In this document: positions 10,161 through 24,677 of the stretch, one piece after another
How the letters are laid out: each line of letters begins with the position of its first letter
Position numbering within the stretch: position 1 is the first letter of the stretch
Origin: Leifsonia sp. 71-9
GTDB lineage: Bacteria; Actinomycetota; Actinomycetes; Actinomycetales; Microbacteriaceae
Length of the DNA stretch: 64,000 bases
Assembly (NCBI RefSeq): GCF_001898805.1
Contig: NZ_MKVJ01000021.1
Span: forward strand, 444,529 to 508,528
Direction: 5' to 3'
Position numbers and translations under genes: made by a program
The notes under the pieces: generated by a model
The model's database searches: none
Seen by the model: the letters and a program-made list of their open reading frames with translations, nothing else
Told to the model about the DNA's origin: nothing

Positions 10161-10221
10161 CACGTCAGCGGCCCCGCTGAGGCAAGAGACACCATACCGA
10201 TAGGTGGCGCCCCAACAGGAC

Positions 10222-10728: not shown

Positions 10729-11031
10729 TCAGGTCTCCTGCGGGTGGCCGCCCTGTTCGGGCTCGCCCGTGAGCGTCAGGATCGCCCGCTCGGTCAGGTC
10801 GCCCCGTTTCGCCTGTCGATCGACGCCGAAGAGATAGACGGCGTCGAGCACGCCCAGGGTGTTGGTGACGAGCAATCCCACGAACCAGGGCTTGCTGCCA
10901 TTGCGCGCGGCGCGCCACATCGACGCGCCCTTCCACGCCAGGCTCCAGGCGACGACGGCGACGAAGGCCCCCCGGGCACCCGGGGGGATGTCGTGCATCG
11001 GCGTCCGCGATGCACCGTGATGGCTGTTCAT
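10729..11031 (-). CDS. DUF5652-like small membrane protein
   Basis: A 100-residue protein with two hydrophobic segments. FVAVVAWSLAWKGASMWRAA is followed by RNGSKPWFVGLLVTNTLGVL and a closing YLFGVD. The pattern W-K-G-x-x-x-W-R-A-A-R-N...W-F-x-x-L-L-x-x-N-T-L-G is characteristic of DUF5652. Function is unknown. The start at 11031 follows a purine-rich GAATGAGG. It is divergent from a universal stress protein gene, and the gap contains a DosR-like box whose centre lies 42.5 bases from this ATG. Confidence 0.75.
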   Translation of the reverse strand: MNSHHGASRTPMHDIPPGARGAFVAVVAWSLAWKGASMWRAARNGSKPWFVGLLVTNTLGVLDAVYLFGVDRQAKRGDLTERAILTLTGEPEQGGHPQET

Positions 11032-11066
11032 GACCTCATTCGACCGTGCGTGCCTCGCGACGGCAA

Positions 11067-11080
11067 GGGCCGAAGGTCCC
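11067..11080. promoter_or_regulatory. DosR/DevR-like box 1
   Basis: GGGCCGAAGGTCCC (reverse complement GGGACCTTCGGCCC) keeps the GGGAC...G-CCC core of the mycobacterial DosR box. It sits between the divergent DUF5652 and universal stress protein genes. An identical 14-mer occurs at 15029. Binding by the regulator encoded at 19595-20251 is inferred. Confidence 0.65.
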
Positions 11081-11144
11081 GGTGGTCGGGTGCGAGCCGG
11101 TGCCATGCTCGGGAGCAGCAGCACGAGCACGGGATGGAGCAGCG

Positions 11145-12008
11145 ATGAGCGACGGGCGCACGGTGGTCGGATTCGACGGGACGCCGGCCGCCTGGCGCGC
11201 GCTGGACTGGGCGACCGAGCGCGTCGCGGCGCGCGGCGGGCGCCTGGACATCGTCCAGGCGGTTGATCGCAGGCTCGGCGAAACGCTCACCGGCCGGGAC
11301 GCGTCGGGCACCACCGCCGCGGAGGAGGGCCTCCGGGCCGCCGCCGAGCATGCCCGGGCGCTCGCTCCGCAGGCGCTCGTCGAATCACGCTGGATGGACG
11401 GGCCGCCGACACGGGCTTTGATCGCGGCCGCGGTCGACGCGACCCTCCTCGTCGTGGGCACGGACCGGCGCCCGGGCGGCGGGGACGGCGCCGCGGTCGG
11501 TTCGGTGCCTCTGACCGTCGCGGCCAAGGTCGGCTGCGTGGTCGCCGTCATCCCGGACTCCCCGCGCGCGGCGAGGAAGGTCGTCGTCGCGGGCGTCGAT
11601 GCGTCACCCTACGCCCGCTCGGCGCTGGCTCTCGCCGTCACGGAGGCCAGCTGGCTCGGCGGTCAGGTCGAAGCCGTGCACGCCTGGGACGTCCCGGAGC
11701 CGTTCGAGCGTCCGCTCGACGACGATCGCACCGACCCGGTCGCCGCCGCTCGGGAGCAGCGGGTGATCCCCGACGCCATCGCCGACGTCCCCATCGCGCG
11801 GACAGCCGCGATCGTACCGGTCATGGTGCGCAGCAACCCGGCGGACGCGTTGGTGAGCCGGGGAACGGGCGCGGCCGCCATCGTGGTCGGCACCCGCGGT
11901 CGGGGGCGCGTCGCCTCGTCCCTGCTGGGGTCGGTCAGCCGCGACCTGCTCGAGAACATCCCGTGCCCCGTTCTGGTGACCCCGAAGGAGTGGAGAGACC
12001 ATGGATGA
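11145..12008 (+). CDS. Tandem universal stress protein (UspA) domain protein
   Basis: A 287-residue protein with two UspA domains, about residues 3-140 and 148-285. The second keeps the nucleotide-binding signature GTRGRGRVASSLLGSVS (G-2x-G-9x-G-S). The first is less canonical (VVGTDRRPGGG). The ATG at 11145 is chosen over 11046 because MSDGRTVVGFDGTP is the normal domain start. Tandem Usp proteins are abundant in actinobacterial dormancy regulons and are thought to bind ATP or cAMP. It overlaps the next usp gene by eight bases. A DosR-like box lies 71 bases upstream. Confidence 0.92.
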   Translation: MSDGRTVVGFDGTPAAWRALDWATERVAARGGRLDIVQAVDRRLGETLTGRDASGTTAAEEGLRAAAEHARALAPQALVESRWMDGPPTRALIAAAVDATLLVVGTDRRPGGGDGAAVGSVPLTVAAKVGCVVAVIPDSPRAARKVVVAGVDASPYARSALALAVTEASWLGGQVEAVHAWDVPEPFERPLDDDRTDPVAAAREQRVIPDAIADVPIARTAAIVPVMVRSNPADALVSRGTGAAAIVVGTRGRGRVASSLLGSVSRDLLENIPCPVLVTPKEWRDHG

Positions 12009-12855
12009 CAGGACGATCGTGGGCTGGGACGGCTCGCAGGAATCGGAGCGCGCCCTCGACTGGGCCATGGCGCGGGCGGAGGCCGAGCACGACGGGATCC
12101 TCCTCGTGGACGTGGAGGACACGGAGACCGGGGCGCCGGGGCTGGTCGTGACAGAGCAGATGGTGGCGGAACGCCACCTCGCCGCCGACGCCCGGGCCGA
12201 GCGCGCCGCTGCAGCACACCCCGGTTTGCGGATCAGCACCCACATCATGGCGGGCGACCGGCTGGAGGAGTTGCGGCGGTTCTCCCGCCCCGACACCCTC
12301 GTGGTCGTCGGCACGAGTCGGCGCACCTGGCCGCACGCGCGCTATCGCTGGTCGATCGGAGCGAAGCTCGCCGCCGTCGCCAGTGGCGCCGTCGCCATCA
12401 TCCCCGAGATCCCGGAAGGCCGCTCGACGGTCGTCGCCGGCATCGACGGTTCGGAGGTGTCGATGAAGGCGGCCCGCTTCGCCGCCCGTGAGGCCCGTCG
12501 GCTGGGCGCGTCGCTCCGGCTCGTCCACGCCTGGGCGGAGCCCGCGATCGCCGCACGCGGCATGGCGGCGGATGCGGTGTTCCTCGACCAGATCCGCGAT
12601 GAGCACCGCCGGATCCTGCAGTCGGCGGCCCGCGCCGTCCGCTCCGCGAACCCCGACCTCACGACGACGATGTCGCTGGTGCACGGCGAGCCGGCCCGAG
12701 CGCTGGCCGAGGAGCTGGACGACGCCTGTCTGCTCGTCGTCGGAACGGCGCAGTACACCGGCATCGACCGCCTCCTGCTCGGGTCCGTCAGCCATGCGAT
12801 GGTCATCGACATCAGCGTGCCGACGGTGATCGTCTCGACGGACGCCCTCGTCTGA
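12001..12855 (+). CDS. Tandem universal stress protein (UspA) domain protein
   Basis: A 284-residue protein with two UspA domains, starting MDDRTIVGWDGSQ. The second domain carries GTAQYTGIDRLLLGSVSHAM, a complete nucleotide-binding loop. The first domain ends with a GTSRRTW variant lacking the glycine-rich form. The gene overlaps the preceding usp by eight bases, so the pair is one operon, probably driven from the DosR-like box at 11067. It is convergent with the minus-strand usp at 12862, with only six bases between stops. Confidence 0.92.
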   Translation: MDDRTIVGWDGSQESERALDWAMARAEAEHDGILLVDVEDTETGAPGLVVTEQMVAERHLAADARAERAAAAHPGLRISTHIMAGDRLEELRRFSRPDTLVVVGTSRRTWPHARYRWSIGAKLAAVASGAVAIIPEIPEGRSTVVAGIDGSEVSMKAARFAAREARRLGASLRLVHAWAEPAIAARGMAADAVFLDQIRDEHRRILQSAARAVRSANPDLTTTMSLVHGEPARALAEELDDACLLVVGTAQYTGIDRLLLGSVSHAMVIDISVPTVIVSTDALV

Positions 12856-12861
12856 CCCGGC

Positions 12862-13764
12862 TCAACGGTCGAGAGAGGAGCTCTCCGCTCCGATGACGAC
12901 AGTCGGCGCGGCGAGGTCGAGCACGAGCCCGTGCGAGACCGAACCGAGCCAGGCGCGCTTCCAACCCGTGAGACGACGACTGCTGACCACCAGCATGAAC
13001 GCGTCCTGCGAGCGGGAGCGCAACCCGGAGATCGCGTTCTCGCGCAGCAGCACCGGTTCCACGTTGACGCTGGGATGCCGTTCCCGCACCGTGCGCACGT
13101 GATCCTCCAGGAGTTCGGCGTGCGCCGACTGCTGTGCGTCGATGAAACCGTCGAATTCGTCGTCCGGGACGACCAGGGGCTCCGCGGCGAGCGGCTCCTG
13201 CCAGCAGTGCACGATGGTGAGGGTGTGCTGCGCGGCTTCCGCCTGCTCGGCGGCGTACGCCAGTGCGCGGCGGGCCACGGCCGAACCGTCGACGCCGACC
13301 ACGATCCCGGTCCGATCCCGGTCGGCGACCCGCTCCTCCATCGGAACGATCGCCACCGGACCGTCCGCCGCCGTCGCGAGCCGGGCACCCAGCGACCAGC
13401 CGTACCGCAGCCGGGGTCCGACCCGTCGGCGCGTGCCCACCACGACCAGCGTTCCGGGACCGGTCTGCGTTCTGAGGATCTCCTCTGGATCGCCCACGAG
13501 CAGGGCGCTCGAGGAGACGGCGCCGCGATGCTCGAGTGCGAGGTCGTCCATCCGCCGCGCGAGCCGCCCCTCCTCCTCCACGGTGGCGCGGTCGAGCGCA
13601 CGCGGGTCGCCGCGGAACAGCCCGCGATCCACGACGTCGAAGACCTCGACGGTCCCGCCGACGTCGCCGGCGTGACGTATCGCCCACGCGACGGCAGCGT
13701 CTGCGGGCTCCGTCCCATCCCAGCACACGACGGTCCGTTCGGGCGCCGCCGCCCCGGGGGTCAC
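12862..13764 (-). CDS. Tandem universal stress protein (UspA) domain protein
   Basis: A 300-residue two-domain Usp. The GTG at 13764 overlaps the flavodoxin stop (GTGA) and begins just before PERTVVCWDGTEPAD, the normal domain start; a longer in-frame ATG at 13812 would run into the flavodoxin gene. The first domain has GTRRRVGPRLRYGWSLGAR. The second has SSRRLTGWKRAWLGSVSHGL, where the first Gly of the nucleotide loop is replaced by Ser. It is the last gene of a five-gene minus-strand operon starting at 16506. Confidence 0.9.
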   Translation of the reverse strand: MTPGAAAPERTVVCWDGTEPADAAVAWAIRHAGDVGGTVEVFDVVDRGLFRGDPRALDRATVEEEGRLARRMDDLALEHRGAVSSSALLVGDPEEILRTQTGPGTLVVVGTRRRVGPRLRYGWSLGARLATAADGPVAIVPMEERVADRDRTGIVVGVDGSAVARRALAYAAEQAEAAQHTLTIVHCWQEPLAAEPLVVPDDEFDGFIDAQQSAHAELLEDHVRTVRERHPSVNVEPVLLRENAISGLRSRSQDAFMLVVSSRRLTGWKRAWLGSVSHGLVLDLAAPTVVIGAESSSLDR

Positions 13765-14318
13765 CGCGCACCCGCTCGCGAGCCGACGGCCTGCGCCAGC
13801 GTTCCGCCCCACGCGCGGGCGCGCTCGAGTTCACCGGCTTCGAGCGCGCTGTCCTTGTCCACGAGGAAGCTCGCCCGATCGGCGAAGCGTCGCGACCCGG
13901 CCGCGCGGAGGCGCTTGTCGAGGGCTGCCGCTGCCGAACCGGAGAACAGCTCCGTCATGTCGGCGCGGGTGTCGAAGGCGGCGAACAGGCCGGGGAGGGT
14001 GCCGCAGCTGTCGAGCCACTCACCCATCCCGATGCCCTCGGCGTCCGGTTCCAGGGTCAGCGCTCGATCCGGGTCGTCGCCCCAGCGGCCGGCCTCGGCG
14101 CGCGTCGAGGGTCTGCTCAGCCCGTGCACGTGGGTCGGAGCGCCGACCACGATCGCATCGGCGTCGGGGAACGTCTCGGGTGCGTCCTTGACGGGCAGCA
14201 CCGTGACGTCCGGTCCGCCGCGCATGCCCTCGGCGATCGCCTCGGCGATACGGCGGGTGCTGCCGAACATCGACTCGTACACGATGACCACCCGGCCGTT
14301 CGCGGCTCCCGCGCTCAT
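13761..14318 (-). CDS. Flavodoxin-domain protein
   Basis: A 185-residue protein with the flavodoxin FMN phosphate-binding signature near the N-terminus (VVIVYESMFGSTRRIAEAIA) and the second strand-loop AIVVGAPTHVHGLS. It is longer than electron-carrier flavodoxins, with a helical insert containing LPGLFAAFDTRADMTE, as in flavodoxin-like proteins of actinobacterial stress loci. It presumably carries electrons or acts as a flavin-dependent quinone or redox protein. Its ATG overlaps the BON gene stop and its stop overlaps the usp start, so the three are translationally coupled. Confidence 0.88.
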   Translation of the reverse strand: MSAGAANGRVVIVYESMFGSTRRIAEAIAEGMRGGPDVTVLPVKDAPETFPDADAIVVGAPTHVHGLSRPSTRAEAGRWGDDPDRALTLEPDAEGIGMGEWLDSCGTLPGLFAAFDTRADMTELFSGSAAAALDKRLRAAGSRRFADRASFLVDKDSALEAGELERARAWGGTLAQAVGSRAGAR

Positions 14319-14992
14319 CGGATCGCCTCGGGCTCGACCCGGAGGAGATCGTGCACCATCCGGACGTGCGGCGATGCCCAGGCGATGCGGGTCGCGTGGC
14401 GGCGTTCCGTCCACGAGCTCACCGCGCCCGTGAGAGTCACCTCGTCGCCGTCGACCGTCACCTCGATGCGCCGCGCGTCGAGGATCGCATTGCGCGTGAT
14501 TCCGTTGGCGATCTGCTCGGCGATGTCGTCCGCTGCCGGGCGCCGGGTCAGTTCGATGCGGCTCTCGACCGAGCGCACGCCGCAGATCCGTTCGACGGCG
14601 CGTTTGGCGGCGGCACGCTGCGCATCCCATTCGACGGTGCCGCTCAGCACGACATGATGCCCGTCGACCTGGGCGTGGATGCCGTCGTGGGGGACGCCGC
14701 TGGTCCAGGCGAGGATCGCGTCGATCGCTGCGGCGAGTCGACGCCCTTCGGGCTCCCGCGCGGTCGACGGGAGGCTCAGCTCGTCCGCGACGGTGCGCAC
14801 ACCGGCCACGCGCTGGACGGCGTCGACGGCGGCGATGCGCTCGTGGAGCGTGGCGACCTCGCCCGTGAGGGTCACGACTCCGTTCTCGACGGAGACGCCG
14901 ATCGCGGGGGCGCTCACATCCGGGGTCCACGCGAGCTCGGCTTCGACCGCGCGGCGGACGGCGAGATCGCTGAAGATGATTGTGGCGTTCAT
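14315..14992 (-). CDS. Triple BON-domain protein
   Basis: A 225-residue protein made of three BON repeats at about residues 8-75, 82-150 and 155-222. Each has the A/S-V-x-N/D-G-x-V-x-L-x-G-x-V motif (VSVENGVVTLTGEV, AQVDGHHVVLSGTV, VTVDGDEVTLTGAV). BON proteins bind phospholipid or polymer surfaces and protect the envelope in stress (OsmY-like). There is no signal peptide. Start is 14992 or 15004; neither has a ribosome-binding site. With a start at 14992 the DosR-like box centre lies 43.5 bases upstream, as expected for a leaderless activated promoter. It is followed by coupled flavodoxin and usp genes. Confidence 0.88.
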   Translation of the reverse strand: MNATIIFSDLAVRRAVEAELAWTPDVSAPAIGVSVENGVVTLTGEVATLHERIAAVDAVQRVAGVRTVADELSLPSTAREPEGRRLAAAIDAILAWTSGVPHDGIHAQVDGHHVVLSGTVEWDAQRAAAKRAVERICGVRSVESRIELTRRPAADDIAEQIANGITRNAILDARRIEVTVDGDEVTLTGAVSSWTERRHATRIAWASPHVRMVHDLLRVEPEAIR

Positions 14993-15028
14993 GCGGCCAA
15001 GCATCCACGCCGCACGGTCGCCCGGGGT

Positions 15029-15042
15029 GGGCCGAAGGTCCC
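15029..15042. promoter_or_regulatory. DosR/DevR-like box 2
   Basis: GGGCCGAAGGTCCC, identical to box 1, lies in the 51-base gap between the minus-strand alcohol dehydrogenase and the BON gene. It would drive the BON-flavodoxin-usp part of the operon as an internal promoter. Confidence 0.65.
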
Positions 15043-15055
15043 GTGGCGCGGCCGG

Positions 15056-16063
15056 TCAGGCGGGGACGTCTCCTGGCGCGACCCGCACGACGAGCGAGCC
15101 GCCGGCCCGACCCGAGCGGACCCTGTCGATCGCCTCCGCGACGTCGTCGAACGGGACGACCGTGACGCGCGGACGCAGGTGCAGAGTGCGTGCCAGAGCG
15201 AGGAACCGTGTGCCGTCCTCCCGGGTGTTCGCGGTGACCGTGCGCAGATCGCGCTCCCGGAACAGCGAGTCCTCGTAGACGAGGGAGGGGATGTCGCTCA
15301 TCTCGATCCCGGCGAGCACGACGGTGCCGCCGCTGACAGTGGCCGCGAGGGCGACGGGGACGAGTCCGCCTGCCGGCGCGAACACGATCGCCGCGTCCAG
15401 CGGCTCCGGCGGCCGCTCGGCCTCGTCGCCGACGAACGTCGCCCCGAGCTCGCGGGCGAGCGCCCGGTTCTGCTCACCGCGCGTCATCGCGAACACCCGG
15501 GCGCCGCCCGCCATGGCGAGTTGCGCTGTGACGTGCGCGCTGGATCCGAAGCCGTAGATCCCGAGGTTCCCGCCGGGCGGGAGGTTCGCGCGGCGGAGTG
15601 CGCGGTAGCCGATGATCCCGGCACAGAGCAGAGGGGCGATGCGGACGGGATCGACGTCGCCGTCGACGGGATACACGTACGCGGCGGGTGCCGTGAGGTA
15701 CTCGGCGAAGCCGCCGTCCGCGTCCCACCCGGTGTACTCCGAGTGCGGGCAGAGGTTCTCCGCCCCGCGCCGGCAGAAGGCGCACTGGCCGCAGGTGCGG
15801 CGCAGCCACGCCACGCCCACCCGATCGCCGAGCGCGACACCGGTGACGGCCGTGCCGCGGCCGACCACGCGCCCCACCGCCTGGTGGCCCGGGATGACGT
15901 GCGGACGATGGACGGGGATCTCGTGATCGACGACGTGGAGGTCGGTGCGGCACACTCCGCACACCTCGACCTCGACCAGCACCTCGTCGACCGACGGCTC
16001 CGGGACGGGCACCCGCACCTGCTCCAGCCCCCCGCTCGTCCCCGTGGTCCGCCAAGCCCGCAT
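15056..16063 (-). CDS. Zinc-dependent alcohol dehydrogenase (MDR family)
   Basis: A 335-residue medium-chain dehydrogenase. Catalytic-zinc ligands appear in CGVCRTDLH and PGHQAVGRV. The structural zinc site is the four-Cys lobe CGQCAFCRRGAENLC. The coenzyme-binding loop is GIYGFGSSAH, a variant of GxGxxG with Ser-Ser. The ATG at 16063 lies six bases after the stop of the membrane protein gene, fitting an operon. It resembles actinobacterial AdhA-type enzymes that interconvert alcohols and aldehydes with NAD(P). In this island it probably disposes of reducing equivalents. Confidence 0.92.
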   Translation of the reverse strand: MRAWRTTGTSGGLEQVRVPVPEPSVDEVLVEVEVCGVCRTDLHVVDHEIPVHRPHVIPGHQAVGRVVGRGTAVTGVALGDRVGVAWLRRTCGQCAFCRRGAENLCPHSEYTGWDADGGFAEYLTAPAAYVYPVDGDVDPVRIAPLLCAGIIGYRALRRANLPPGGNLGIYGFGSSAHVTAQLAMAGGARVFAMTRGEQNRALARELGATFVGDEAERPPEPLDAAIVFAPAGGLVPVALAATVSGGTVVLAGIEMSDIPSLVYEDSLFRERDLRTVTANTREDGTRFLALARTLHLRPRVTVVPFDDVAEAIDRVRSGRAGGSLVVRVAPGDVPA

Positions 16064-16068
16064 CGACG

Positions 16069-16506
16069 TCACGAGGCGACCGTCCGGCCGGACGTCCGTT
16101 CGACCGGGAGCAGGCCGAGGGCGAGCAGCAGGAGCCCCAGCTCCGTCAGGCCCGCGGCGAAGTACGCCGCCTGCAGCGGACTGAACGGGATGAACGCCAT
16201 CTGCACGAAGATCCAGATCAGCAATCCGAAGCCGGCGACGGCGACCGCGAACGGCCCGCGGCGCGAGCCGCGCCCGATCAGCAGCGCGGCGACGACATGG
16301 GTTCCGCCGACGACCAGGGCCAGGATGAGCCCGGGCAGCAGATACGTGGCGAAGGGGCTGCCCGTGAGGTACGCCGGATTCGGCAACGCGCCCCCCTCGC
16401 CCGCGCCGGTCATCGAACCGACGGCCAGGGCGAGGCCGCCCGCGAGCGCGGTCACGGCGACGGTCGCCGTGAGCGCCGTCTCCACGATGCGGATCCATCG
16501 TCGCAT
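16069..16506 (-). CDS. Four-helix hypothetical membrane protein
   Basis: A 145-residue integral membrane protein. Hydrophobic segments are at about residues 8-32, 52-76, 85-108 and 112-136, with little outside the membrane. The ATG at 16506 follows AGGAGGAGGA, a strong ribosome-binding site; the longer open frame to 16689 would run into the divergent promoter. It is the first gene of the minus-strand operon (membrane protein, alcohol dehydrogenase, BON, flavodoxin, Usp). Family not recognised. Confidence 0.75.
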   Translation of the reverse strand: MRRWIRIVETALTATVAVTALAGGLALAVGSMTGAGEGGALPNPAYLTGSPFATYLLPGLILALVVGGTHVVAALLIGRGSRRGPFAVAVAGFGLLIWIFVQMAFIPFSPLQAAYFAAGLTELGLLLLALGLLPVERTSGRTVAS

Positions 16507-16564
16507 GGCGTCCTCCTCCTGCTGTGCCTGGATCGAGCATCCCAGCGCGCTCGGTCGATCGGGA

Positions 16565-16578
16565 GGGCCGAAAGTCCC
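16565..16578. promoter_or_regulatory. DosR/DevR-like box 3
   Basis: GGGCCGAAAGTCCC differs from boxes 1 and 2 at one position. It lies between the divergent starts at 16506 and 16631, about 65 and 60 bases from each, so it could activate both operons. Confidence 0.65.
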
Positions 16579-16630
16579 ATCCCGAGGCGCCTCCGTGCGG
16601 TCAGACTGGCGGCAACCGGAAGGAGCCGCC

Positions 16631-17701
16631 ATGCACGCAGCCGTCGTCAACCGATTCCACGAGCCCCTCACCATCGAGGACCGCCCCATCCCATCACCCG
16701 GACCCGGTCAGGTCCTGGTCCGGCTGGAGGCGTGCGGCCTCTGCCACACCGACATCCACGCCATCGACGGCGACTGGCCGGTGAAGCCGGGCCTGCCCTT
16801 CGTGCCGGGCCATGAAGGCGTCGGCATCGTCGAACGCGTCGGAGCGGGGGTGACGACCCGCACGATCGGCCAGCGGGTGGCGCTCCCGTGGCTCGGGCAT
16901 GCCTGCGGCGAGTGCCGCTACTGCGTCGACGGGCGCGAGAACCTCTGCGAGAGCCAGTACAACACGGGGTACGCGGTCGACGGGGGCTACGCGGAGTACG
17001 CCCTCGCGGACGCGCGCTTCGCATCGCCGGTCCCCGACGGCATCTCGCCGTTGGAGGCGGCTCCGCTCACCTGTGCAGGGGTGACGACGTACGCCGCCGT
17101 CAAAGCGGCACGCGTCGTGCCGGGCGAGCGCGTGGCCGTCTTCGGCGTCGGCGGCCTGGGCCATCTCGCCGTGCAGTACGCGCGTCTGGTGGGGGCGAAG
17201 GTCGTGGCGGTGGATGTGACGGACGAGAAGCTGGACCTCGCCGTCGAGCTCGGGGCGGACCACGTCATCAACGCGGCGGAGGTCGATCCAGCCGAGGCGC
17301 TCCGCCATCTCGGCGGCGCCGACGTCGCCATCGTCCTGGCGGTCGCTCCGAGCGTGTTCGATCAGGCGTTCCGCTCGTTGAACCGGGGCGGTCGGCTCGT
17401 ACTGGTGTCCCTCCCGGCCGAGGGGACTCTGACCGTGCCCGTCTTCGACACCGTCCTGAAGGGGATCTCCATCATCGGCTCCATCGTCGGCACCCGTCAG
17501 GACCTCGCGGAGGTGTTCGCCCTGCACGCCGCGGGCCGCACGCGCGTCGTCGCATCCCGCCGTGACATCCACGATGTGAACGCAGCCGTCGCGGAGGTGC
17601 TGGCGGGCTCGGTGCCCGCGCGTCTCGTCTTCGTCTACGACGCCCCGCTCCCGGTGGAGGAGCAGGTGGCGGACGGCGTCGTGACGTCCGTCACGGGATG
17701 A
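16631..17701 (+). CDS. Zinc-dependent alcohol dehydrogenase, AdhP-like
   Basis: A 356-residue enzyme of the propanol-preferring alcohol dehydrogenase type. It has CGLCHTDIH and PGHEGVG for the catalytic zinc, CGECRYCVDGRENLC for the structural zinc, and the classic Rossmann loop GVGGLGHLAVQYA. It interconverts primary alcohols and aldehydes with NAD. AAGGAGCC precedes the ATG. Its stop overlaps the P1B-ATPase start (ATGA). This is the second zinc alcohol dehydrogenase of the island, with opposite orientation and sharing the box-3 promoter gap with the first. Confidence 0.93.
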   Translation: MHAAVVNRFHEPLTIEDRPIPSPGPGQVLVRLEACGLCHTDIHAIDGDWPVKPGLPFVPGHEGVGIVERVGAGVTTRTIGQRVALPWLGHACGECRYCVDGRENLCESQYNTGYAVDGGYAEYALADARFASPVPDGISPLEAAPLTCAGVTTYAAVKAARVVPGERVAVFGVGGLGHLAVQYARLVGAKVVAVDVTDEKLDLAVELGADHVINAAEVDPAEALRHLGGADVAIVLAVAPSVFDQAFRSLNRGGRLVLVSLPAEGTLTVPVFDTVLKGISIIGSIVGTRQDLAEVFALHAAGRTRVVASRRDIHDVNAAVAEVLAGSVPARLVFVYDAPLPVEEQVADGVVTSVTG

Positions 17702-19572
17702 GCGTGTCCGCCGCGGCACGGTCCCGCCGCGGCGGGCCCCTGGCCGTCCTCCGGCGCCACTGGCTGGTGGCGGCCACGATCCTCGTGTCCGCCGGCGCCG
17801 GCACTGTCGCGCTCGCGGGAGCGGGGACGACGGGCGCCTGGCTGGGCGGGGGATATGCCCTCGCCGTGGCGGCCGGCTACGCGGTCCGGATGGTCCGCAC
17901 CGTCGCGCGCGGGAGCTTCGGCGTCGACCTGCTCGCCGTCGTCGCGATCGTTGCCACCGTACTCGTCGGCGAGGTGATCGCCGCACTCGTCGTCGTGCTC
18001 ATGCTGACCGGCGGCGAGGCGCTGGAGGACTCCGCGAACCGGCGGGCGCGGCACGAACTCGACGCGCTCCTCGATCGCGATCCGCGGCTGGCGCATCGGC
18101 TCGCAGGCGAGCAGGTCGAGGACGTGCCGATCGATGCCGTGGCCGTCGGCGACCTCCTCCTGGTGCGTCCGTCGGAGGTTGTGCCGGTGGACGGCGTCCT
18201 CGTGAGCGACGGCGCCGCTTTCGACCTCTCCTCCCTGACGGGCGAGAGCCTGCCGGTCGCGCTCACTGAGGGGGAGCCCGTCCTCAGCGGAGCGATCAAC
18301 GGCGCGGAGGCCGTGCGCATCCGGGCCGCCGCCGTCGCGGCGGACAGCCAGTACCAGCAGATCGTCGCGCTGGTCGCGCGCGCCGCGCACAGCAAGGCGG
18401 CCGTCGTCCGGCTCGCGGACCGCTTCGCGCTGCCCTTCACGGTCTTCTCGCTCCTGCTGGCCGGTGTCGCGTGGATCGTGAGCAGCGATGCCGTTCGCTT
18501 CGCCGAGGTCCTCGTACTCGCCACGCCGTGCCCGCTGCTCATCGCCGCGCCTGTCGCCTTCATCGGCGGGATGGGCAGCGCGGCGCGCGCCGGCATCATC
18601 GTGCGGGCCGGCACCGTGTTCGAGGCGCTGGCGAAAGCGCGGACCGTGGTCTTCGACAAGACGGGGACGCTCACGTCGGGGCGCCCCGCGCTCCGCAAGA
18701 TCCGCCCTGCGGAAGGATTCACCGCGGACGAGCTCCTCGCCCTGGCGGCCAGCGCCGAGCAGTACTCCTCCCACGTCCTGGCGGCGTCCGTCGTGCAGGA
18801 GGCGGCCTCCCGTCGCGTGGGACTCCTGCCGGTCGACGCCGCCCGTGAGCAGGCGTCAGACGGTGTGTTCGCGCGCGTCGGCCAGCGAGAGGTGGCGGTC
18901 GGCACACGCGCGTTCGTACGATCGCACGCGCCAGCGACACCGCGGGAGCCGATCGCCCCAGGGGAGCTGGCCGTCTACATCGGCGTCGACGGAAGCTACG
19001 GCGGCGCGCTGATCGAACGCGACGCCCCCCGGCAGAACGCCCGCGCGACCTTGGACCGCCTCCGCAGCCTCGGCGTCACCGATATCGAAATGCTCACCGG
19101 GGACGCCGCCGAGACCGCGGCCGGCATCGCCGCCGAGCTGGGCATCGCCCGCTACCGGGCGGAGTGCCTGCCCGCAGACAAGGTCGACCGCGTGGCCTCC
19201 ATCGCCCGGAGACCGGTCGTCATGGTGGGCGACGGCGTCAACGACGCACCGGTGCTCGCAAGCGCCGATGTGGGGATCGCGATGGGCGCGAACGGCGCGA
19301 CCGCGGCGAGCGAGTCGGCCGACGTGGTGCTCCTCGTCGACGACATCGGCCGTGTCGCCGACGCCGTAGTGATCGCCCGGCGCACGGTGAGCGTCGCCCT
19401 GCAGAGCATCTGGCTCGGGATCGCCGCCTCAGTCGTCCTGATGATCATCGCCTCCTTCGGCCTCATCCCCGCCGTCGCCGGCGCCCTGCTCCAGGAGGCC
19501 GTCGATCTGGCGACGATCCTGGCCGCTCTGCGGACGGCCCGGATCCATGTCAAAACGAGTCGCGCTTGCTGA
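17698..19572 (+). CDS. P1B-type heavy-metal ATPase with a TPC membrane motif
   Basis: A 624-residue ion pump. It has the phosphatase motif TGES near 181, the phosphorylated aspartate D320 in DKTGT, and the hinge GDGVNDAP. The transmembrane metal site reads ATPCPL (T276-P-C278) in place of the common CPC of Cu/Zn pumps or SPC of Co pumps, so the ion is not predictable. No N-terminal CxxC metal-binding domain is present. It is coupled by ATGA to the alcohol dehydrogenase. Metal P-type ATPases recur in mycobacterial dormancy regulons. Confidence 0.92.
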   Translation: MSVSAAARSRRGGPLAVLRRHWLVAATILVSAGAGTVALAGAGTTGAWLGGGYALAVAAGYAVRMVRTVARGSFGVDLLAVVAIVATVLVGEVIAALVVVLMLTGGEALEDSANRRARHELDALLDRDPRLAHRLAGEQVEDVPIDAVAVGDLLLVRPSEVVPVDGVLVSDGAAFDLSSLTGESLPVALTEGEPVLSGAINGAEAVRIRAAAVAADSQYQQIVALVARAAHSKAAVVRLADRFALPFTVFSLLLAGVAWIVSSDAVRFAEVLVLATPCPLLIAAPVAFIGGMGSAARAGIIVRAGTVFEALAKARTVVFDKTGTLTSGRPALRKIRPAEGFTADELLALAASAEQYSSHVLAASVVQEAASRRVGLLPVDAAREQASDGVFARVGQREVAVGTRAFVRSHAPATPREPIAPGELAVYIGVDGSYGGALIERDAPRQNARATLDRLRSLGVTDIEMLTGDAAETAAGIAAELGIARYRAECLPADKVDRVASIARRPVVMVGDGVNDAPVLASADVGIAMGANGATAASESADVVLLVDDIGRVADAVVIARRTVSVALQSIWLGIAASVVLMIIASFGLIPAVAGALLQEAVDLATILAALRTARIHVKTSRAC

Positions 19573-19594
19573 CCCAGCAGCTCTTCAATGCCCG

Positions 19595-20251
19595 CTACTG
19601 CCTGTGAGGCGAGCGTGAGCCGTGGCGTTCTGTCTGCAGCACGGCGGCCTGCGTGCGGCGTTCCAGGCCAAGTTTGGCGAGCAACGAGCTCACATAGTTC
19701 TTGACGGTCTTCTCGGCCAGGTCGAGGCGTTCCCCGATCTGGCGGTTCGTGAGGCCGTCGGCGATCAGAGCCAGCACCTGCCGCTCACGGAGGCCGAGGG
19801 CTGCGAACCGGGGGTCGTCGGCCGGATCGCGCAACCGGGTGGCGACGCGGGTGACGACCCGGGGGTCGATGAGGCGCCGACCGGCCGCGCACGCGCGGAT
19901 GTCGTCGAGGAGCGTGCTCCCGCGGATGTCCTTGATGACGTACCCGTCCGCTCCGGCGATCACCGCGGCGTTGAGGGCCTCCTCGTCGTCGTACGCGGTC
20001 AGGATCAGGCACCGGATCGCGGGATCGTCCTGCTTGAGGCGGCGGCACACGTCGATCCCGCTGCCGTCGGGCATCCGCACGTCGAGCACCGCGACGTCGG
20101 GTCGCACGGCCGGGATGCGCGCCCGAGCCTGGGCCGCCGTGGCGGCCTCGCCAACGACCTCGAGGTCCGCCTGGCTGTCGATGAGAGCGGCGAGCCCGCG
20201 ACGGACGATCTCGTGATCGTCGGCGAGGAACACGCGGATCGGCGGAGTCAT
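19595..20251 (-). CDS. devR: DevR/DosR-like NarL-family response regulator
   Basis: A 218-residue response regulator. The receiver domain has the acidic pair D11-D12, phosphoacceptor D57 in VLDVRMPDGS, and the conserved Thr and Lys. The LuxR-type DNA-binding domain at about 150-210 contains LGLRERQVLALIADGLTNRQ and EKTVKNYVSSLLAKLGLERR, strongly resembling mycobacterial DevR/DosR. Its start overlaps the kinase stop (ATGA). It probably binds the four GGGCCG-N3-GTCCC boxes of this island. The symbol reflects homology and context, not experiment. Confidence 0.88.
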   Translation of the reverse strand: MTPPIRVFLADDHEIVRRGLAALIDSQADLEVVGEAATAAQARARIPAVRPDVAVLDVRMPDGSGIDVCRRLKQDDPAIRCLILTAYDDEEALNAAVIAGADGYVIKDIRGSTLLDDIRACAAGRRLIDPRVVTRVATRLRDPADDPRFAALGLRERQVLALIADGLTNRQIGERLDLAEKTVKNYVSSLLAKLGLERRTQAAVLQTERHGSRSPHRQ

Positions 20252-21879
20252 GAGCCGTCCCCGCCCGAGAGCGGAAGGCAGAAGGTGAGCCTTGTGCCGG
20301 CCGAGTCGGAGTCCACCACGAGCGAGCCGTCGCGCCCCCGCGCCCTCTCGGCCAGATTCGCCAGCCCGCTCCGCCGTGGCGTCGTGCCGATCCCGTGCCC
20401 GTCGTCGGACACCACGGCCACGACCTCATCCGCCGAGGCTGTAACGAAGACGGCGGCGGTGGATCCACCCGAGTGCCGCACCGTGTTCGCCAGCGCCTCG
20501 CGGACGAACGCGACGATGTCGTCCGCGAGCCGGGGCTCGACGACCGTCTCGACAGGCCCCGAGAACGAGACCGTCGCCGGAACGGGCAGGGTCCCGCCGA
20601 TCTCGTGCACGATGTCGATCAGGCGGTGGCGGAGGCTGGAGTCGTCGCCGTGCGGCTGGGCGAGCGCGAAGATGATGGTCCGGATCTGGGCGATGGTGTC
20701 GTCCAGCGTCCGCACGGTGGAGTCGATCCGCTGGGCGAGCGGGCCGCCAATCGCCGCCTGGATGCTCTGCAGCTCCAGCCCGGCGCCGAAGAGCTGCTGG
20801 ATCGCATGGTCGTGGAGGTCGCGGGCGATGCGTGCGCGGTCCTCGAGGAGGAGCATCCGCTGCCGGTCCGCGCGGGCAGCGGCCAGCTCGACGGCGAGCT
20901 GCGTCTGGCGGGCGAGCGCGACCGTGCGTTCCAGCTCGAACGCGGTGAAGACCCGGGCTCCCGGCTCGCGCGCCACGACCAGCAGGGACCGGCCGGCCTC
21001 GTCGCGGTCGAACGGGACGAGCAGGGCCGGGCCCAATCGGTCACCCCCATCCGGCGGCAGCGCTCCGAGATCGTCGGTGCGGGCGGGCTGCCGCCCTTCG
21101 ACCGCCGAGCGGAGGACGGCGTCGTCCGGCCAGGCGTCCGCCTCCACATCGACGATGCGCACCGCGCGTGCACCGGTGAGAGCGACCAGGCGCGAGATCA
21201 AGTCCGCGACGCCCTCGTCGACGCTCCCCCCGAGCACGGCCGCCGTGATGTCGGCGGTGGCCGCGCTCCACGCCTGCCGCGCGGCCGTCTCGGCGAAGAG
21301 ACGCGCGTTGTCGATCGCGAAGCCCGCGGTGGCGGCCAGCGCCCGGACGAGCTGCTCGTCGTCCTCGGTGAACCCTCCGCGCTCGGGGTCGGTGAGGTAG
21401 AGGTTGCCGTAGACCGTGTCGCGCACGGTGATGGGCACGCCGAGGAAGGCCGACATCGGAGGATGCCCGGGCGGGAAGCCGGACGAGCGCGGGTCAGCGG
21501 CGATCGCGTCGATGCGGATCGGCCGCGGGTCGTCGATCAGCGCGCCGAGCAGACCGTGGCCCTCGGGGAGGTGACCGATCTCCTCCACCGCCCCCTCATC
21601 CATCCCGACATGGATGAACTGCTCCAGGCCGCCCCCGTCGGAGATCACGCCGAGCGCGCCGTACCGGGCGCCCACCAGCTCCACCGCGGACGCGATGATC
21701 GTGCGCAGCACCGTCTCCAGTTCGAGGTGCGACACGACGGCACGGTTGGCCCGGACGAGCGCCCGGAGGCGGCCCTGCGTCTCCAGCACCTTGCCGGCCT
21801 GCTCCACGAGCGTGGTGAGCGCCTGGTCCAGCTCGGCGCGAGGGACGTCGGGGAACGTGAGCGGGTCGTCGCCGGCCAT
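20248..21879 (-). CDS. devS: DevS/DosT-like GAF-GAF sensor histidine kinase
   Basis: A 543-residue kinase with two GAF domains (about 52-200 and 215-335) and a HisKA_3/HATPase pair. The phosphorylated histidine is H356 in RIARDLHDHAIQQLFG. The ATP-binding lid carries DDGHGIG. In GAF-A, GFPPGHPPMSAFLGVP places H139 where DevS/DosT of Mycobacterium tuberculosis has its haem-binding histidine. Oxygen, NO or redox sensing is therefore likely. The ATG at 21879 is supported by a GAGGGGG site. It forms a coupled operon with the response regulator and is divergent from the usp operon at 22045. Confidence 0.88.
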   Translation of the reverse strand: MAGDDPLTFPDVPRAELDQALTTLVEQAGKVLETQGRLRALVRANRAVVSHLELETVLRTIIASAVELVGARYGALGVISDGGGLEQFIHVGMDEGAVEEIGHLPEGHGLLGALIDDPRPIRIDAIAADPRSSGFPPGHPPMSAFLGVPITVRDTVYGNLYLTDPERGGFTEDDEQLVRALAATAGFAIDNARLFAETAARQAWSAATADITAAVLGGSVDEGVADLISRLVALTGARAVRIVDVEADAWPDDAVLRSAVEGRQPARTDDLGALPPDGGDRLGPALLVPFDRDEAGRSLLVVAREPGARVFTAFELERTVALARQTQLAVELAAARADRQRMLLLEDRARIARDLHDHAIQQLFGAGLELQSIQAAIGGPLAQRIDSTVRTLDDTIAQIRTIIFALAQPHGDDSSLRHRLIDIVHEIGGTLPVPATVSFSGPVETVVEPRLADDIVAFVREALANTVRHSGGSTAAVFVTASADEVVAVVSDDGHGIGTTPRRSGLANLAERARGRDGSLVVDSDSAGTRLTFCLPLSGGDGS

Positions 21880-21983
21880 GTCGCCCCCTCGGCTCTGTCG
21901 CGGGCCGGGCGGATCGGCCCCTGCTGCGACCGAGTGTAGCTTCCCGACCGGCGGACGCAGCAGTCCCGCCCGCGCAACTCCAC

Positions 21984-21997
21984 GGGACCAACGGCCC
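21984..21997. promoter_or_regulatory. DosR/DevR-like box 4
   Basis: GGGACCAACGGCCC matches the GGGAC-N4-GGCCC pattern of the other three boxes read in reverse. It lies 54.5 bases (centre) before the usp start at 22045 and about 111 bases before the kinase start, so it may drive the usp operon and autoregulate the sensor genes. Confidence 0.6.
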
Positions 21998-22044
21998 GCG
22001 CGCAGTGCCTGCACGATCCGACACTGGTCGTAGGAGGTGCAGGC

Positions 22045-22956
22045 ATGGTGATCCGCAGGCTCGTGGTCGGGGTGGACGCATCGGCGCCGTCGCGCGCCGC
22101 GATCCGATGGGCGACCGCTCACGCCGCCGGCTTCGGCGCCGAGGTGCTGCTGGTGCACGTCGCCGACGATGAATGGGGCACGGTCGGCTCTGTGCTCATC
22201 GACGAGGTCGACGACCAGGCGGGGCGGACGCTGAGCGCTGCGGAGGCCTTCGCGCGGTCGCTCCATCCGGACGTCCCCGTCCGCACCGAGCTGCGCAGGG
22301 GCAGCCCGATGGTCGAGCTCGCGGCCTTCAGCGAACCGGGGACGGCGCTCGTCGTCGGGACGCACAAGACCGGCTTCCATTACGGCCGCGCCTTCGGATC
22401 CCGCAGCCTCCAGCTGGCGAACCTGGCGACCGGGCCGGTCGCGGTCATCCCCGGCGTCAGCTCCCGGTTGCGGAGCGGCGTCGTGGTCGGAGTCGATGAC
22501 ACGCCCGCGGGCGAGGCGGCGGTCGACCTCGCCGCCGACCTGGCGGCCTCCCACGCCTGCGAGCTCCTGGCCGTGCGCTCGTCCGGGGCGAGCACGGCCG
22601 TCGACATCGAGCGGGACGACCAGCGCGAGGACTGGCAGCGGCGCCGCGACGACGACGCCAGGGCGCTCATGTCGGCCGTGCTCGACCGGGCCCGACGCCG
22701 GCAGCCCGCCATCGTCATCCGTGCGCGGGTGGTCCGCCGGCCGGCGGGGATGGCGTTGAACGAGCTCGCCCGCTCGGCCGAGCTGCTGGTCATCGGCGAC
22801 TCGCGTCGCGCGGAGGCGCGGCTCGGCACCCTCGGAGCGGTCGCGTACGACGTGCTGCTCAACGTGTCGTCGCCGACCCTCGTCGTCCACGCCCCGCTCG
22901 ACGTCGAGCGGGTTGATGCACGCAACACGGAAGGAGAACACGATGCCATCGGATGA
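22045..22956 (+). CDS. Tandem universal stress protein (UspA) domain protein
   Basis: A 303-residue two-domain Usp starting MVIRRLVVGVDASAPS after a strong AGGAGG. The first domain has GTHKTGFHYGRAFGSRSL. The second has GDSRRAEARLGTLGAVAYDV, where the final G-S of the nucleotide loop is altered, so that half may not bind ATP. It is the first gene of a five-gene operon with the flavin-nucleotide-binding protein, two more usp genes and mgtA. Its 3' end overlaps the next gene by 14 bases. Confidence 0.9.
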   Translation: MVIRRLVVGVDASAPSRAAIRWATAHAAGFGAEVLLVHVADDEWGTVGSVLIDEVDDQAGRTLSAAEAFARSLHPDVPVRTELRRGSPMVELAAFSEPGTALVVGTHKTGFHYGRAFGSRSLQLANLATGPVAVIPGVSSRLRSGVVVGVDDTPAGEAAVDLAADLAASHACELLAVRSSGASTAVDIERDDQREDWQRRRDDDARALMSAVLDRARRRQPAIVIRARVVRRPAGMALNELARSAELLVIGDSRRAEARLGTLGAVAYDVLLNVSSPTLVVHAPLDVERVDARNTEGEHDAIG

Positions 22957-23389
22957 CGTTGTCCGAGACCTCGACCGCAGCGAATCCAGAGAGCTGCTCC
23001 GCCTGGGGGTCCTCGGCCGCCTCGCGACCGCCGCCGGCGGGGAGCCCGACATCTTCCCCGTCAACTACTACTCCGACGGGGAGACCGTGCTGGTCCGCAC
23101 CGCTCCGGGGACGAAGCTGCTCGAGCTGACCGTGCACGACACGGTCGCGTTCGAGATCGACGGCTTCGACAACCTGCAGGCGTGGAGCGTCGTCGTGCAC
23201 GGTCGCGCCCATGAGTTGCAGAGCGGCGCCGAGCTCGACGAGGCCGAGCGCTTCCCGTTGCAGCCGTGGATCCCGACCCTCAAGTACCGATTCGTCCGGA
23301 TCTCCGTCGACCGCATCTCGGGCAAGCGGTTCCTCCGCGTGCCAGAACCGGACCGCTGGCCGGTCCCGCAGGAAGGAAGCACATCATGA
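22943..23389 (+). CDS. Pyridoxamine 5'-phosphate oxidase-like flavin-nucleotide-binding protein
   Basis: A 148-residue split-barrel protein. Typical elements are LLRLGVLGRLATAAGGEPDI, FPVNYYSDGETVLVRTAPGT and the strand AWSVVVHGRAHEL. Such proteins bind FMN, F420 or haem and include stress-linked nitroreductases or sensors. AAGGAGA precedes the ATG. It overlaps the upstream usp by 14 bases and its stop overlaps the next usp start. Members of this family are also found in mycobacterial DosR regulons. Confidence 0.87.
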   Translation: MPSDDVVRDLDRSESRELLRLGVLGRLATAAGGEPDIFPVNYYSDGETVLVRTAPGTKLLELTVHDTVAFEIDGFDNLQAWSVVVHGRAHELQSGAELDEAERFPLQPWIPTLKYRFVRISVDRISGKRFLRVPEPDRWPVPQEGSTS

Positions 23390-23862
23390 ACCAGGACGCG
23401 CACCCGGAGAAGTCCGACGATCGCATCCACCCGGGCGGGCGGATCGTGGTGGGTGTGGACGGCTCCGCCTCCTCCATCGCGGCATTGCGACGGGGTGTGA
23501 CCATCGCCGAGAGCCTGGGCTGCTCGCTCGTCGGGGTCACCGTGTGGGAGTTTCCCCCGTCCTGGCCCGGGTATGTCATGGGAGGCTGGTCGCCCGAGGC
23601 GGACGCCCACGCGATCGCCGCGGAGGCTGCCGCCGAGGTCTTCGGCGAGACCTCGCCGTCGTGGTACTCCTCGGTCGTCCGCAGTGGTCCGCCCGCGCCC
23701 GAGCTGGTCGCGGAGTCGACAGGCGCGGAGATGCTGATCGTGGGCAGCCGGGGACGCGGGGGTTTCACGGGGCTGCTCCTCGGATCCGTCTCCCGTGCCT
23801 GCGCCGAGCGCGCTGCGTGTCCCGTGCTGGTCATCCACGACGCGGAGGAGCACGGCCGATGA
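23386..23862 (+). CDS. Single-domain universal stress protein
   Basis: A 158-residue one-domain UspA with a complete nucleotide-binding loop, GSRGRGGFTGLLLGSVS, and a basic extension before the domain (MNQDAHPEKSDDRIHPGG). It is the only single-domain Usp in the island; such forms normally dimerise. The ATG overlaps the preceding TGA, and its own stop overlaps the next usp start, so translation is coupled along the operon. Confidence 0.92.
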   Translation: MNQDAHPEKSDDRIHPGGRIVVGVDGSASSIAALRRGVTIAESLGCSLVGVTVWEFPPSWPGYVMGGWSPEADAHAIAAEAAAEVFGETSPSWYSSVVRSGPPAPELVAESTGAEMLIVGSRGRGGFTGLLLGSVSRACAERAACPVLVIHDAEEHGR

Positions 23863-24677
23863 CCACGACCATCGCGGTCGGGGTCGACGGCCGACCCGAG
23901 CATCGCGCCGCGCGGGACTGGGCGATCACCCGGGCGATCCGGGACGGTTCGCGGCTCGAACTCGTCTACGTGATCCAGCGCGGGTGGGGGGATGTCCTCG
24001 ACGAACCCGACGACGCCTTGGCTCTCGCCGCGCGACGGCTGGTGGAGTCGGACGCCGCCGCGGCCGACCGGGTCGAGGACGTGTCGGCCACAGTCCGCTA
24101 CGGGCACGTCGGTACCGAACTGGTCGCCGCCGCGCGCGACGCCGACCTTCTCGTCGTCGGCGCGCATCCGGCGACCGAACGGTCGCAGTTCACGGGGTCG
24201 CTGGCCGTGCGGGTCTCCGCGGGCGCCGCCGGCCCGGTAGCCGTCGTACCGCACGGCTGGGCGGGGCGTGACGGAGGCGTGACGGTCGGCGTCGACGGCG
24301 GCCTCCCCTCCGAACTCGCGGTCGCCTTCGCGGCCGACGAGGCCGCCGCACTCGACGCCCCGCTGGTCGTCGTCTGCGCGGGCTTCACCGCGAATCCCCT
24401 CCTCGCCGGTCTGGTGCCGGAGATCGGGCTGGGCGATCGTCGGGAGCGGATCGTGCAGAAGGCGGCGGAGCAGGCGAGGGAGCGGCATCCGTCGCTCGAC
24501 GTGCGCACGCGGGTGATCGAGGCGGCGCCATCGCGCGGCCTGGTCGAAGCGGCGGCCGGGAGCGCGCTGCTGGTGGTCGGGACGCACAACCGGCACGCCG
24601 GCGGCCGGTTCCTGTTGGGTTCCGTCAGCCACGACGTGCTGCTCAACCTCCGGTTGCCGGTCGTGGTCGTGCGGTGA
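23859..24677 (+). CDS. Tandem universal stress protein (UspA) domain protein
   Basis: A 272-residue two-domain Usp. The second domain retains GTHNRHAGGRFLLGSVSHDV, the ATP loop. The first has VVGAHPATERSQFTGSLAVRVS, a degenerate loop. It is shorter than the other tandem Usps. The ATG overlaps the stop of the upstream usp, and its stop overlaps the GTG start of the ATPase gene. Confidence 0.92.
   Translation: MTTTIAVGVDGRPEHRAARDWAITRAIRDGSRLELVYVIQRGWGDVLDEPDDALALAARRLVESDAAAADRVEDVSATVRYGHVGTELVAAARDADLLVVGAHPATERSQFTGSLAVRVSAGAAGPVAVVPHGWAGRDGGVTVGVDGGLPSELAVAFAADEAAALDAPLVVVCAGFTANPLLAGLVPEIGLGDRRERIVQKAAEQARERHPSLDVRTRVIEAAPSRGLVEAAAGSALLVVGTHNRHAGGRFLLGSVSHDVLLNLRLPVVVVR

Follow-up and report, generated by a model that had tools for sequence, protein, structure and literature searches.

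A DevSR-type low-oxygen regulon with four DosR-like boxes is the likely basis of a stress island in Leifsonia

A stress island in the Leifsonia DNA analysed here (the window, 64 kb in all) is in all likelihood explained by a low-oxygen regulon of the DevSR (DosT/DosR, OsdKR) type, with four operons activated via DosR-like boxes. Its assignment to the DevSR gas-sensing regulons is well supported; binding, activation rather than repression, the gas signal, induction and the role of each target are inferred. According to the proposed mechanism, the first GAF domain of DevS would hold haem, and O2 leaving the haem, or NO or CO binding to it, would cause DevS to phosphorylate DevR at Asp57. DevR~P would then bind at the four palindromes, whose centres would lie near −42, and turn on the Usp, BON/flavodoxin/Usp, ADH1 and ADH2/P1B-ATPase operons. 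The output would be a small low-oxygen response made up of ethanol/aldehyde-type redox balancing, functions of the universal stress proteins (Usp), and the pumping of cations and metals.

The boxes and the island genes

The box 14-mer GGGCCGAAGGTCCC occurs as exact copies at 11067..11080 (box 1) and 15029..15042 (box 2), as GGGCCGAAAGTCCC, one change away, at 16565..16578 (box 3), and as GGGACCAACGGCCC at 21984..21997 (box 4), just as the initial annotation had reported. Its placement of the boxes in promoter gaps was also borne out: all four lie outside called ORFs, within the 668 non-coding bases (4.0%) of the 16.5-kb interval 10729-27271. The gene content that it had listed was recovered as well, namely six Usp genes, a triple-BON protein, a flavodoxin, two zinc-type alcohol dehydrogenases (ADHs), a P1B-ATPase, a Mg-type P-ATPase, a GAF kinase and a NarL-type regulator.

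Box 1 lies 64 bp before a forward-strand operon of two two-domain Usp genes (11145..12008 and 12001..12855, the second overlapping and following the first) and 68 bp before the reverse-strand gene of a DUF5652 protein (10729..10998). Box 2 lies 36 bp before a reverse-strand operon running leftwards from 14992, which encodes the triple-BON protein (14315..14992; three BON stretches), a flavodoxin-domain protein (13761..14318; domain match) and, as gene 3, a two-domain Usp (12862..13764). Box 3 is divergent. On one side, at 79 bp, is the reverse-strand membrane protein/ADH1 operon, in which a hydrophobic 138-aa protein (16069..16485; no Pfam or NCBIfam match, homologues at several Leifsonia loci and at L103 and L104) precedes ADH1, a zinc-binding alcohol dehydrogenase family protein (15056..16063; TIGR02822); on the other, at 52 bp, is the forward-strand operon of ADH2, an AdhP-like alcohol dehydrogenase (16631..17701; 337.5 bits, just below the AdhP cut-off of 344), and a heavy-metal P1B-type ATPase (17698..19572; TIGR01525 and the Cd subfamily model TIGR01512 over cut-off). 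From box 4 it is 104 bp to devS and 47 bp to a forward-strand operon that begins with a two-domain Usp gene (22045..22956) and continues, by domain matches, with a pyridoxamine-5′-phosphate-oxidase-fold protein (Pyridox_ox_2, FMN-binding fold; 22943..23389), a one-domain Usp (23386..23862) and a two-domain Usp (23859..24677). A Mg-translocating-type P-type ATPase gene (24794..27271, forward strand; TIGR01524 over cut-off) follows this operon after 116 bp and has no box of its own. The region initially annotated ends to the left of these genes (22045-27271), which comprise three of the Usp genes, the Mg-type ATPase gene and that of the Pyridox_ox_2 protein, which had not been listed earlier. 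In total, five of the six island Usp genes are double-domain and one is single-domain, and the island accounts for 11 of the genome's 18 Usp domain matches.

The operator frame GGGNCNWWNGNCCC has four matches in the window, exactly boxes 1-4. Genome-wide it was found 20 times in 4.475 Mb, four of these within ~10.9-11 kb, where 0.049 would be expected per 10.9 kb (Poisson P(≥4) ~2e-7, the choice of region not being allowed for). The frame is not over-represented across its own genome (20 matches vs 24 for a backwards-read control pattern), nor is the bare 14-mer, at up to three mismatches, enriched in the window (22 found vs 20.9 expected). By count, then, both are at chance level, and the argument depends on clustering, on placement and on the relatives. 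A genome-wide scan with the fixed frame, addressing the scatter without promoter preference that the initial annotation had named as contrary evidence, placed 13 of the remaining 16 matches inside called ORFs and 3 outside, compared with none of the four island boxes inside (Fisher p = 0.007), and did not refute the initial reading. Gene calls came from a home-made codon model, which was re-used in the genome scan, the pattern controls and the relatives' sites, so called gene starts may be off. Four other Usp loci of the genome (L017-L020; a fifth, on C14, was left out) gave two strict-frame matches, both ORF-internal and lacking the A/T centre, and the window scan found no A/T-centred box upstream of the Hsp20 gene at 3525 or the redox cluster 27291-30279.

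The sensor, the regulator and the signal

The reverse-strand devS gene (20248..21879) encodes a DevS/DosT-type GAF sensor histidine kinase of 543 aa that matches DosT GAF-A (2vzw) with an E-value of 4.5e-46. GAF-A carries the haem His139 (proximal His149 in DosS/DosT) and the distal Tyr161 (Tyr171), and is accompanied by a HisKA_3 H-box (His356) and a HATPase domain. No other match in the genome exceeds 220 residues, leaving one full-length sensor. A structure model (mean pLDDT 82.5) gave the DosS/DosT GAF-A domains as its best structural matches, with full-length DosS not among the matches of the alignment. The haem His and distal Tyr are kept in all 29 aligned sensors (window plus 28 relatives). 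The DosS-discriminating Glu87 and Thr169 are absent from all 29, which have Gly (Gly77 in DevS) and Asn as in DosT; position 97 is Gln throughout, neither DosS nor DosT type. Gly77 would be expected to give DevS the stable O2 binding of DosT. Since all are DosT-like at the two discriminating positions, Glu87 of the DosS type may be peculiar to mycobacteria. A relative that has a single such sensor would offer a simple system in which to study oxygen sensing and feedback wiring.

These residues bear on the strongest alternative, in which the boxes are DevR sites of a general stationary-phase stress regulon and DevS senses redox, quinone state or another ligand instead of oxygen. In its favour, the Usp, BON and metal-pump genes are of the general stress kind, PPDK and pyruvate formate-lyase query pieces matched nowhere in the genome (a search run without a positive control), and redox sensing is itself debated even for DosS (PMC4082495, in part). 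However, the invariant haem His and distal Tyr, the DosT-like Gly and Asn, and the fermentative-looking genes that boxes face in relatives all argue against it, and we regard the non-oxygen reading as unlikely.

The devR gene (19595..20251, reverse strand) encodes a DevR/DosR-type response regulator of 218 aa whose best solved match is M. tuberculosis DevR (3c3w, E 1e-67). The receiver phosphoacceptor (Asp54 in DosR) is Asp57 here and is Asp in all 30 aligned rows, window included. DosR K179, K182 and N183, which we take to be DNA-contact residues, correspond to K181, K184 and N185 and are kept in all 29 rows covering the region. Could the boxes be real operators of another NarL/FixJ-type regulator? 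The genome holds 38 matches to the DevR sequence, 22 of which (DevR included) run from receiver to DNA-binding domain, but the recognition-helix signature K-x-[VIM]-K-N-Y is found in DevR and nowhere else in the genome, and the closest paralogue is 45% identical. Moreover, box density across 100 sampled Microbacteriaceae genomes, 35 of which encode the sensor, follows DevS presence (counts uncorrected for phylogeny). Another reader is thus very unlikely, and the island's own DevR is the regulator most likely to recognise the boxes.

Promoter geometry, relatives and feedback

A −10-like hexamer starting 24 nt past the box is far commoner than one at other offsets, being found in four of the seven window box directions (with offset 23 in one more) and in 36 of 94 directions in relatives. 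It occurs on the Usp side of box 1 (CATGCT), at box 2 (GATGCT) and on both sides of box 3 (GATGCT and CAGACT), and the Usp side of box 4 has GACACT at offset 23. The DUF5652 gene faces box 1 across a gap with no −10-like hexamer at offsets 23-25, and on the devS side of box 4 the sole TAnnnT is TACACT at offset 46. Offset 24 is the geometry of an activator overlapping −35; judged from the hexamer positions, the proximal box would therefore overlap the −35 element.

An unbiased scan of 10,000 dyads at 34 DevS-bearing loci ranked the operator frame first, and the A/T-centred frame GGGNC-N4-GNCCC, a trait of the DosR/DevR-OsdR family, is present before target operons; the outer TTS/SAA of the DosR operator is not kept in relatives. 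The compared loci belong to one family and are non-independent. It is barely credible that the palindromes arose by chance as GC-rich repeats or act as RNA hairpins/terminators: GGGCC...GGTCCC is able to fold and the bare 14-mer is unenriched, but the A/T-centred frame is 44 times denser between genes than within, against at most 2.7 times for ten control patterns with other gaps or base orders, the −10 spacing is fixed, and 51 of the relatives' 55 sites outside ORFs face the adjoining gene start. The terminator/hairpin reading was rejected on the spacing and the control patterns.

Some counts from relatives speak against the regulon reading. At four of the 34 DevS loci (L033, L045, L047 and L054) no box was found outside ORFs. 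In a set that mixes in loci picked for boxes, 155 leading genes have a homologue in the island, and for 99 of them no box lies within 260 bp; in 13 of the 18 families concerned, a third of the leaders or fewer have one. Within L021-L054 alone, a box precedes 44 of 127 island-family leaders vs 15 of 221 other leaders. Of 34 sites in a same-genus genome (G049), 30 were looked at, with 22 outside called ORFs and 8 inside; at two of the 22 (L089 and L092) an overlong gap probably reflects a failure of gene calling. In G087, 11 of 28 sites (the C2 cluster) were looked at, 10 outside ORFs and 1 inside.

The weak part of the initial annotation was its description of the regulon as self-regulated. The activating spacing of box 4 points to the Usp operon at 22045, not to devS, and the window locus lacks the devS-side box of the tandem pair, a second box that is present at five Leifsonia loci and in one genome of the same genus. 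Box 4 probably does not switch on devSR itself. A doubtful weak site at 21907..21920 (GGGCGGATCGGCCC), one fixed position off and the sole intergenic one among six one-off frame sites in the window, lies downstream of the devS TACACT. Four Cryobacterium loci have TAGAAT/TAGACT at offset 8 from the box on the devS side, and Pseudolysinimonas has TACACT at offset 11; the core promoter of devS would there lie under the box, and DevR~P might act as a repressor of its own operon. We tentatively suggest, with more doubt than confidence, that family DevSR systems often lack the mycobacterial positive feedback, the divergent box driving the Usp side only and devSR running on its own promoter with a good −10, with tandem-box gain or loss by lineage as a wiring change. 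If true, the response would be a graded, reversible one to low oxygen in place of a self-latching dormancy switch.

Relation to known DevSR systems

Among the literature matches listed, no title or abstract opening described a DevR/DosR regulon in Microbacteriaceae; subscription journals lay mostly outside this scope, and PMC6113628 and PMC11684682, both with 'devr' and Leifsonia, were left out. The PolS-PolR system of Microlunatus phosphovorus is likewise a DevSR-like pair in a non-mycobacterial actinobacterium, PolR being described as 76% identical to DevR, but it differs in its reported motif, a direct repeat (GTTCACnnnnnGTTCaC), and in its polyphosphate/phosphate targets (PMC6754071, in part). 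As PolR is reported on a different motif, a conserved recognition helix alone would not prove the site.

The likeness to DosS/DosT-DosR of M. tuberculosis extends to conserved phosphorylation, DNA-contact and haem residues and to Usp targets. The DosR operator TTSGGGACTWWAGTCCCSAA has the same frame as the window boxes (PMC2275270, in part), and a proximal site overlapping −35 is described there (PMC3029386, in part), as the −10 spacing suggests for Leifsonia. By contrast, Leifsonia has one full-length sensor, DosT-like at 87 and 169, and two ADHs, a BON protein and a heavy-metal ATPase among its targets.

The closest parallel is OsdKR (OsdK-OsdR, SCO0203/SCO0204) of Streptomyces coelicolor, a published dormancy regulon of DevSR-like type that shares the operator frame, to which the comparisons in this paragraph refer (PMC5069765, in part). 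That 43 sites are predicted there contrasts with four in one island, and at most a few elsewhere, in Leifsonia, where no box was found before nitrate reductase or PPDK genes; osdR has its own predicted box, whereas Leifsonia devS has none in an activating position. In both, genes for Usp, alcohol dehydrogenase and PNPOx-type proteins surround the regulator pair, and many boxes are predicted. The OsdR consensus AGGGCCGATCGGCCCT fits the window frame; the OsdR sites of SCO5978/5979, SCO0167 and narG2 contain the core of boxes 1 and 2, and the SCO2347 site contains that of box 3. The 14-bp core of one listed OsdR site, in a region that OsdR bound in vitro, is identical to boxes 1 and 2. The initial annotation's DosR-type boxes in a stress or low-oxygen island outside Mycobacterium stand, without the implied novelty: the Leifsonia island, whose arrangement is found again in relatives, extends a known system and is not a new one. 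With the sensor encoded in 35 of the 100 sampled family genomes, and with an operator and promoter geometry in common from which regulons can be predicted, the dormancy switch of tuberculosis may be a single branch of a gas-sensing regulon of older actinobacterial origin.

Boxes and transcription units of the island

Four 14-bp operators of predicted DosR type (boxes 1-4) were verified in the window sequence at the positions reported by the initial annotation: 11067..11080, 15029..15042, 16565..16578 and 21984..21997. Read on the opposite strand, boxes 1 and 2 are GGGACCTTCGGCCC, box 3 is GGGACTTTCGGCCC and box 4 is GGGCCGTTGGTCCC, and the frame common to them, GGG-n-C-n-WW-n-G-n-CCC, matches the 64-kb window exactly at these four sites and nowhere else. 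Coding sequence makes up 96% of the surrounding island (10729-27271), and the boxes all fall within the remaining 668 non-coding bases. Pfam and NCBIfam matches agree with the gene list of the same annotation (six Usp, a triple BON, a flavodoxin, two zinc alcohol dehydrogenases [ADH1 and ADH2], a heavy-metal P1B-ATPase, a Mg-type P-ATPase, a GAF-HisKA_3 kinase and a NarL-type regulator) and add a Pyridox_ox_2 protein; of 18 Usp domain matches genome-wide, 11 fall in the island.

Box 1 lies between DUF5652 (-) and a Usp-Usp operon (+), box 2 upstream of BON-flavodoxin-Usp (-), box 3 between membrane protein-ADH1 (-) and ADH2-P1B-ATPase (+), and box 4 between devS-devR (20248..21879 and 19595..20251, both -) and Usp-PNPOx-Usp-Usp (+), so that the upstream gap of each of seven units contains a box. 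The Mg-ATPase gene, which starts 116 bp past the last Usp gene, has no box of its own. On the right, the island adjoins a redox cluster (27291-30279, -) encoding a 4Fe-4S ferredoxin, a NuoF-like FMN/Fe-S protein, a ferric-reductase-like membrane protein and an ApbE flavin transferase; the NuoF/ferric-reductase pair also adjoins the island in one relative (L021) and, together with the ferredoxin, in another (L038). On the left, the coding signal is weak across 5200-10700 (GC 0.66 in 8001-12000), where one of seven scanned ORFs has a Pfam match (YaaC-like, 8856-10160). The frame scan of the window found no A/T-centred box upstream of the redox cluster, nor one at the Hsp20 gene (3525-3947, +) 7 kb left of the island; in a genome of the same genus (G049), a gene identified by eye, which we take to be Hsp20-like, lies within the island and faces a box.

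Across the whole genome the frame matches 20 times, against 24 for the backwards pattern. Thirteen of the remaining 16 matches lie within called ORFs and three outside, the latter preceding, by gene names read off the sequence with no family search behind them, an FHA-domain-like operon (L004), P1B-ATPase-like ORFs (L006) and a conjugation-like gene (L007). The L006 box (GGGACCTTGGACCC, at 3041 of G000:C7) stands 169 bp upstream of reading frames that appear split, with transposase- and resolvase-like genes adjoining, and may belong to the regulon as a mobile member. Matches to the frame GGGNCNNNNGNCCC number 153 in this genome, half as many as for its reversed control (332), perhaps through avoidance of stray operators or plain codon bias.

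Recurrence of the box in relatives

A DevS scan yielded 34 loci in relatives (L021-L054), including Leifsonia, Frigoribacterium, Cryobacterium, Microbacterium, Agromyces, Plantibacter and Terrabacter, together with MAGs labelled Pseudonocardiales or Acidobacteria (the Acidobacteria label may reflect a binning error); among named relatives, the six nearest to DevS all come from Leifsonia (60-65% identity). Within 634 kb of these relatives, 82% of it coding, the A/T-centred frame gave 51 intergenic and 5 coding matches, a density 44 times higher between genes than in coding sequence, while the intergenic excess for ten control patterns with altered gap lengths or base orders was at most 2.7-fold. 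When 10,000 gapped dyads were scanned without the motif of the initial annotation as input, GGGNC with a gap of 4 ranked first (79.6; runner-up, 21.1), and this dyad was found in 30 of the 34 loci. No box outside ORFs was present in L033, L045, L047 or L054, the last of which has a weak DevS match. Most sites outside ORFs (51/55) face an adjoining gene start, 45 of them within 300 bp. In L021-L054, boxes within 260 bp precede 44 of 127 unit-leading genes with an island homologue versus 15 of 221 other leaders (p = 7e-11, a value that overstates the evidence because the loci share ancestry); most island homologues in relatives are without a box.

Among 100 sampled genomes of the Microbacteriaceae, 35 encode DevS at E <= 1e-60. 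Counted with the slightly tightened frame GGGHCNWWNGDCCC, boxes occur at 3.09 per Mb with DevS versus 1.65 without (Mann-Whitney p = 2e-6), and the backwards control shows no such difference (3.14 with DevS, 3.38 without; p = 0.9). The Leifsonia sp. 71-9 genome itself has 12 matches to GGGHCNWWNGDCCC versus 16 for the control.

On sequence evidence, the box follows the gene. In G049, boxes accompany the homologues of BON (70%; 59 bp), ADH1 (76%; 63 bp) and ADH2 (87%; 101 bp). The contig, 3.64 Mb long, carries ADH1 at 2.61 Mb, ADH2 at 0.13 Mb and devS at 3.47 Mb; if it is circular, ADH2 and devS would be about 0.3 Mb apart. Other box-fronted genes in G049 and a further family genome (G087) are, judged by eye, presumably acetyl-CoA synthetase-, pyruvate phosphate dikinase (PPDK)-, pyruvate formate-lyase-, PfkB-type kinase- and Hsp20-like. 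Pieces of the PPDK and formate-lyase genes found no match in the Leifsonia sp. 71-9 genome, in a search run without a positive control. G087 holds a much larger cluster (C2:72205-136844, about 65 kb; L104-L107) with 10 boxes outside ORFs and what we take to be many Usp, BON and P-type ATPase genes, as well as PPDK- and formate-lyase-like ones.

Promoter geometry and self-regulation

A -10-like nAnnnT begins 24 nt after the box in 36 of 94 non-redundant promoter directions of the relatives; other offsets average 2.6 and reach 13 at most. In the window, four of seven directions have offset 24 and one has 23. With the -10 element at -12 to -7, this offset would centre the box near -42, covering the -35 region, the placement reported for M. 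tuberculosis DevR promoters in PMC3029386.

The regulon had also been described as self-regulated, and this was the weak part of the claim: a box does occupy the devS gap, but the activating -10 spacing is absent towards devS. A -10-like hexamer at 23-25 was found for one of ten devS-facing boxes versus 68 of 100 other directions (ADH1 excluded); ADH1-facing boxes have it in 1 of 11. The devS-side TAnnnT lies at offset 46 in the window and at 35, 35, 41, 8, 8, 8, 8 and 11 in relatives; L032 lacks it, and is the locus whose devS-facing box has the single hexamer, at 24. Tandem boxes 16 bp apart occupy the Usp/devS gap in five Leifsonia loci (L021-L024, L053) and G049 (L103); the single box of the window in this gap matches the outer box of G049 exactly. 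The second box in the five Leifsonia loci is followed at offset 23 by TTGACT, perhaps a variant -10, and feedback on devS-devR may therefore exist there through the order ADH1-Usp-devS-devR.

Comparison with DosR and OsdR

One published result is at odds with our reading of the window: PolR of Microlunatus is reported in PMC6754071 to be 76% identical to DevR yet to bind a different motif. The frame of the window boxes is that of the operators given for DosR (TTSGGGACTWWAGTCCCSAA; PMC2275270) and OsdR (AGGGCCGATCGGCCCT; PMC5069765). Among the OsdR sites listed in PMC5069765, the core of boxes 1 and 2 recurs at SCO5978/5979, SCO0167 and narG2 and that of box 3 at SCO2347, and the SCO5978/5979 region is described there as bound by OsdR in EMSA. 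Since it shares this frame and these cores, the predicted regulon of the window belongs to an already known kind and is an extension of the DosR/OsdR systems.
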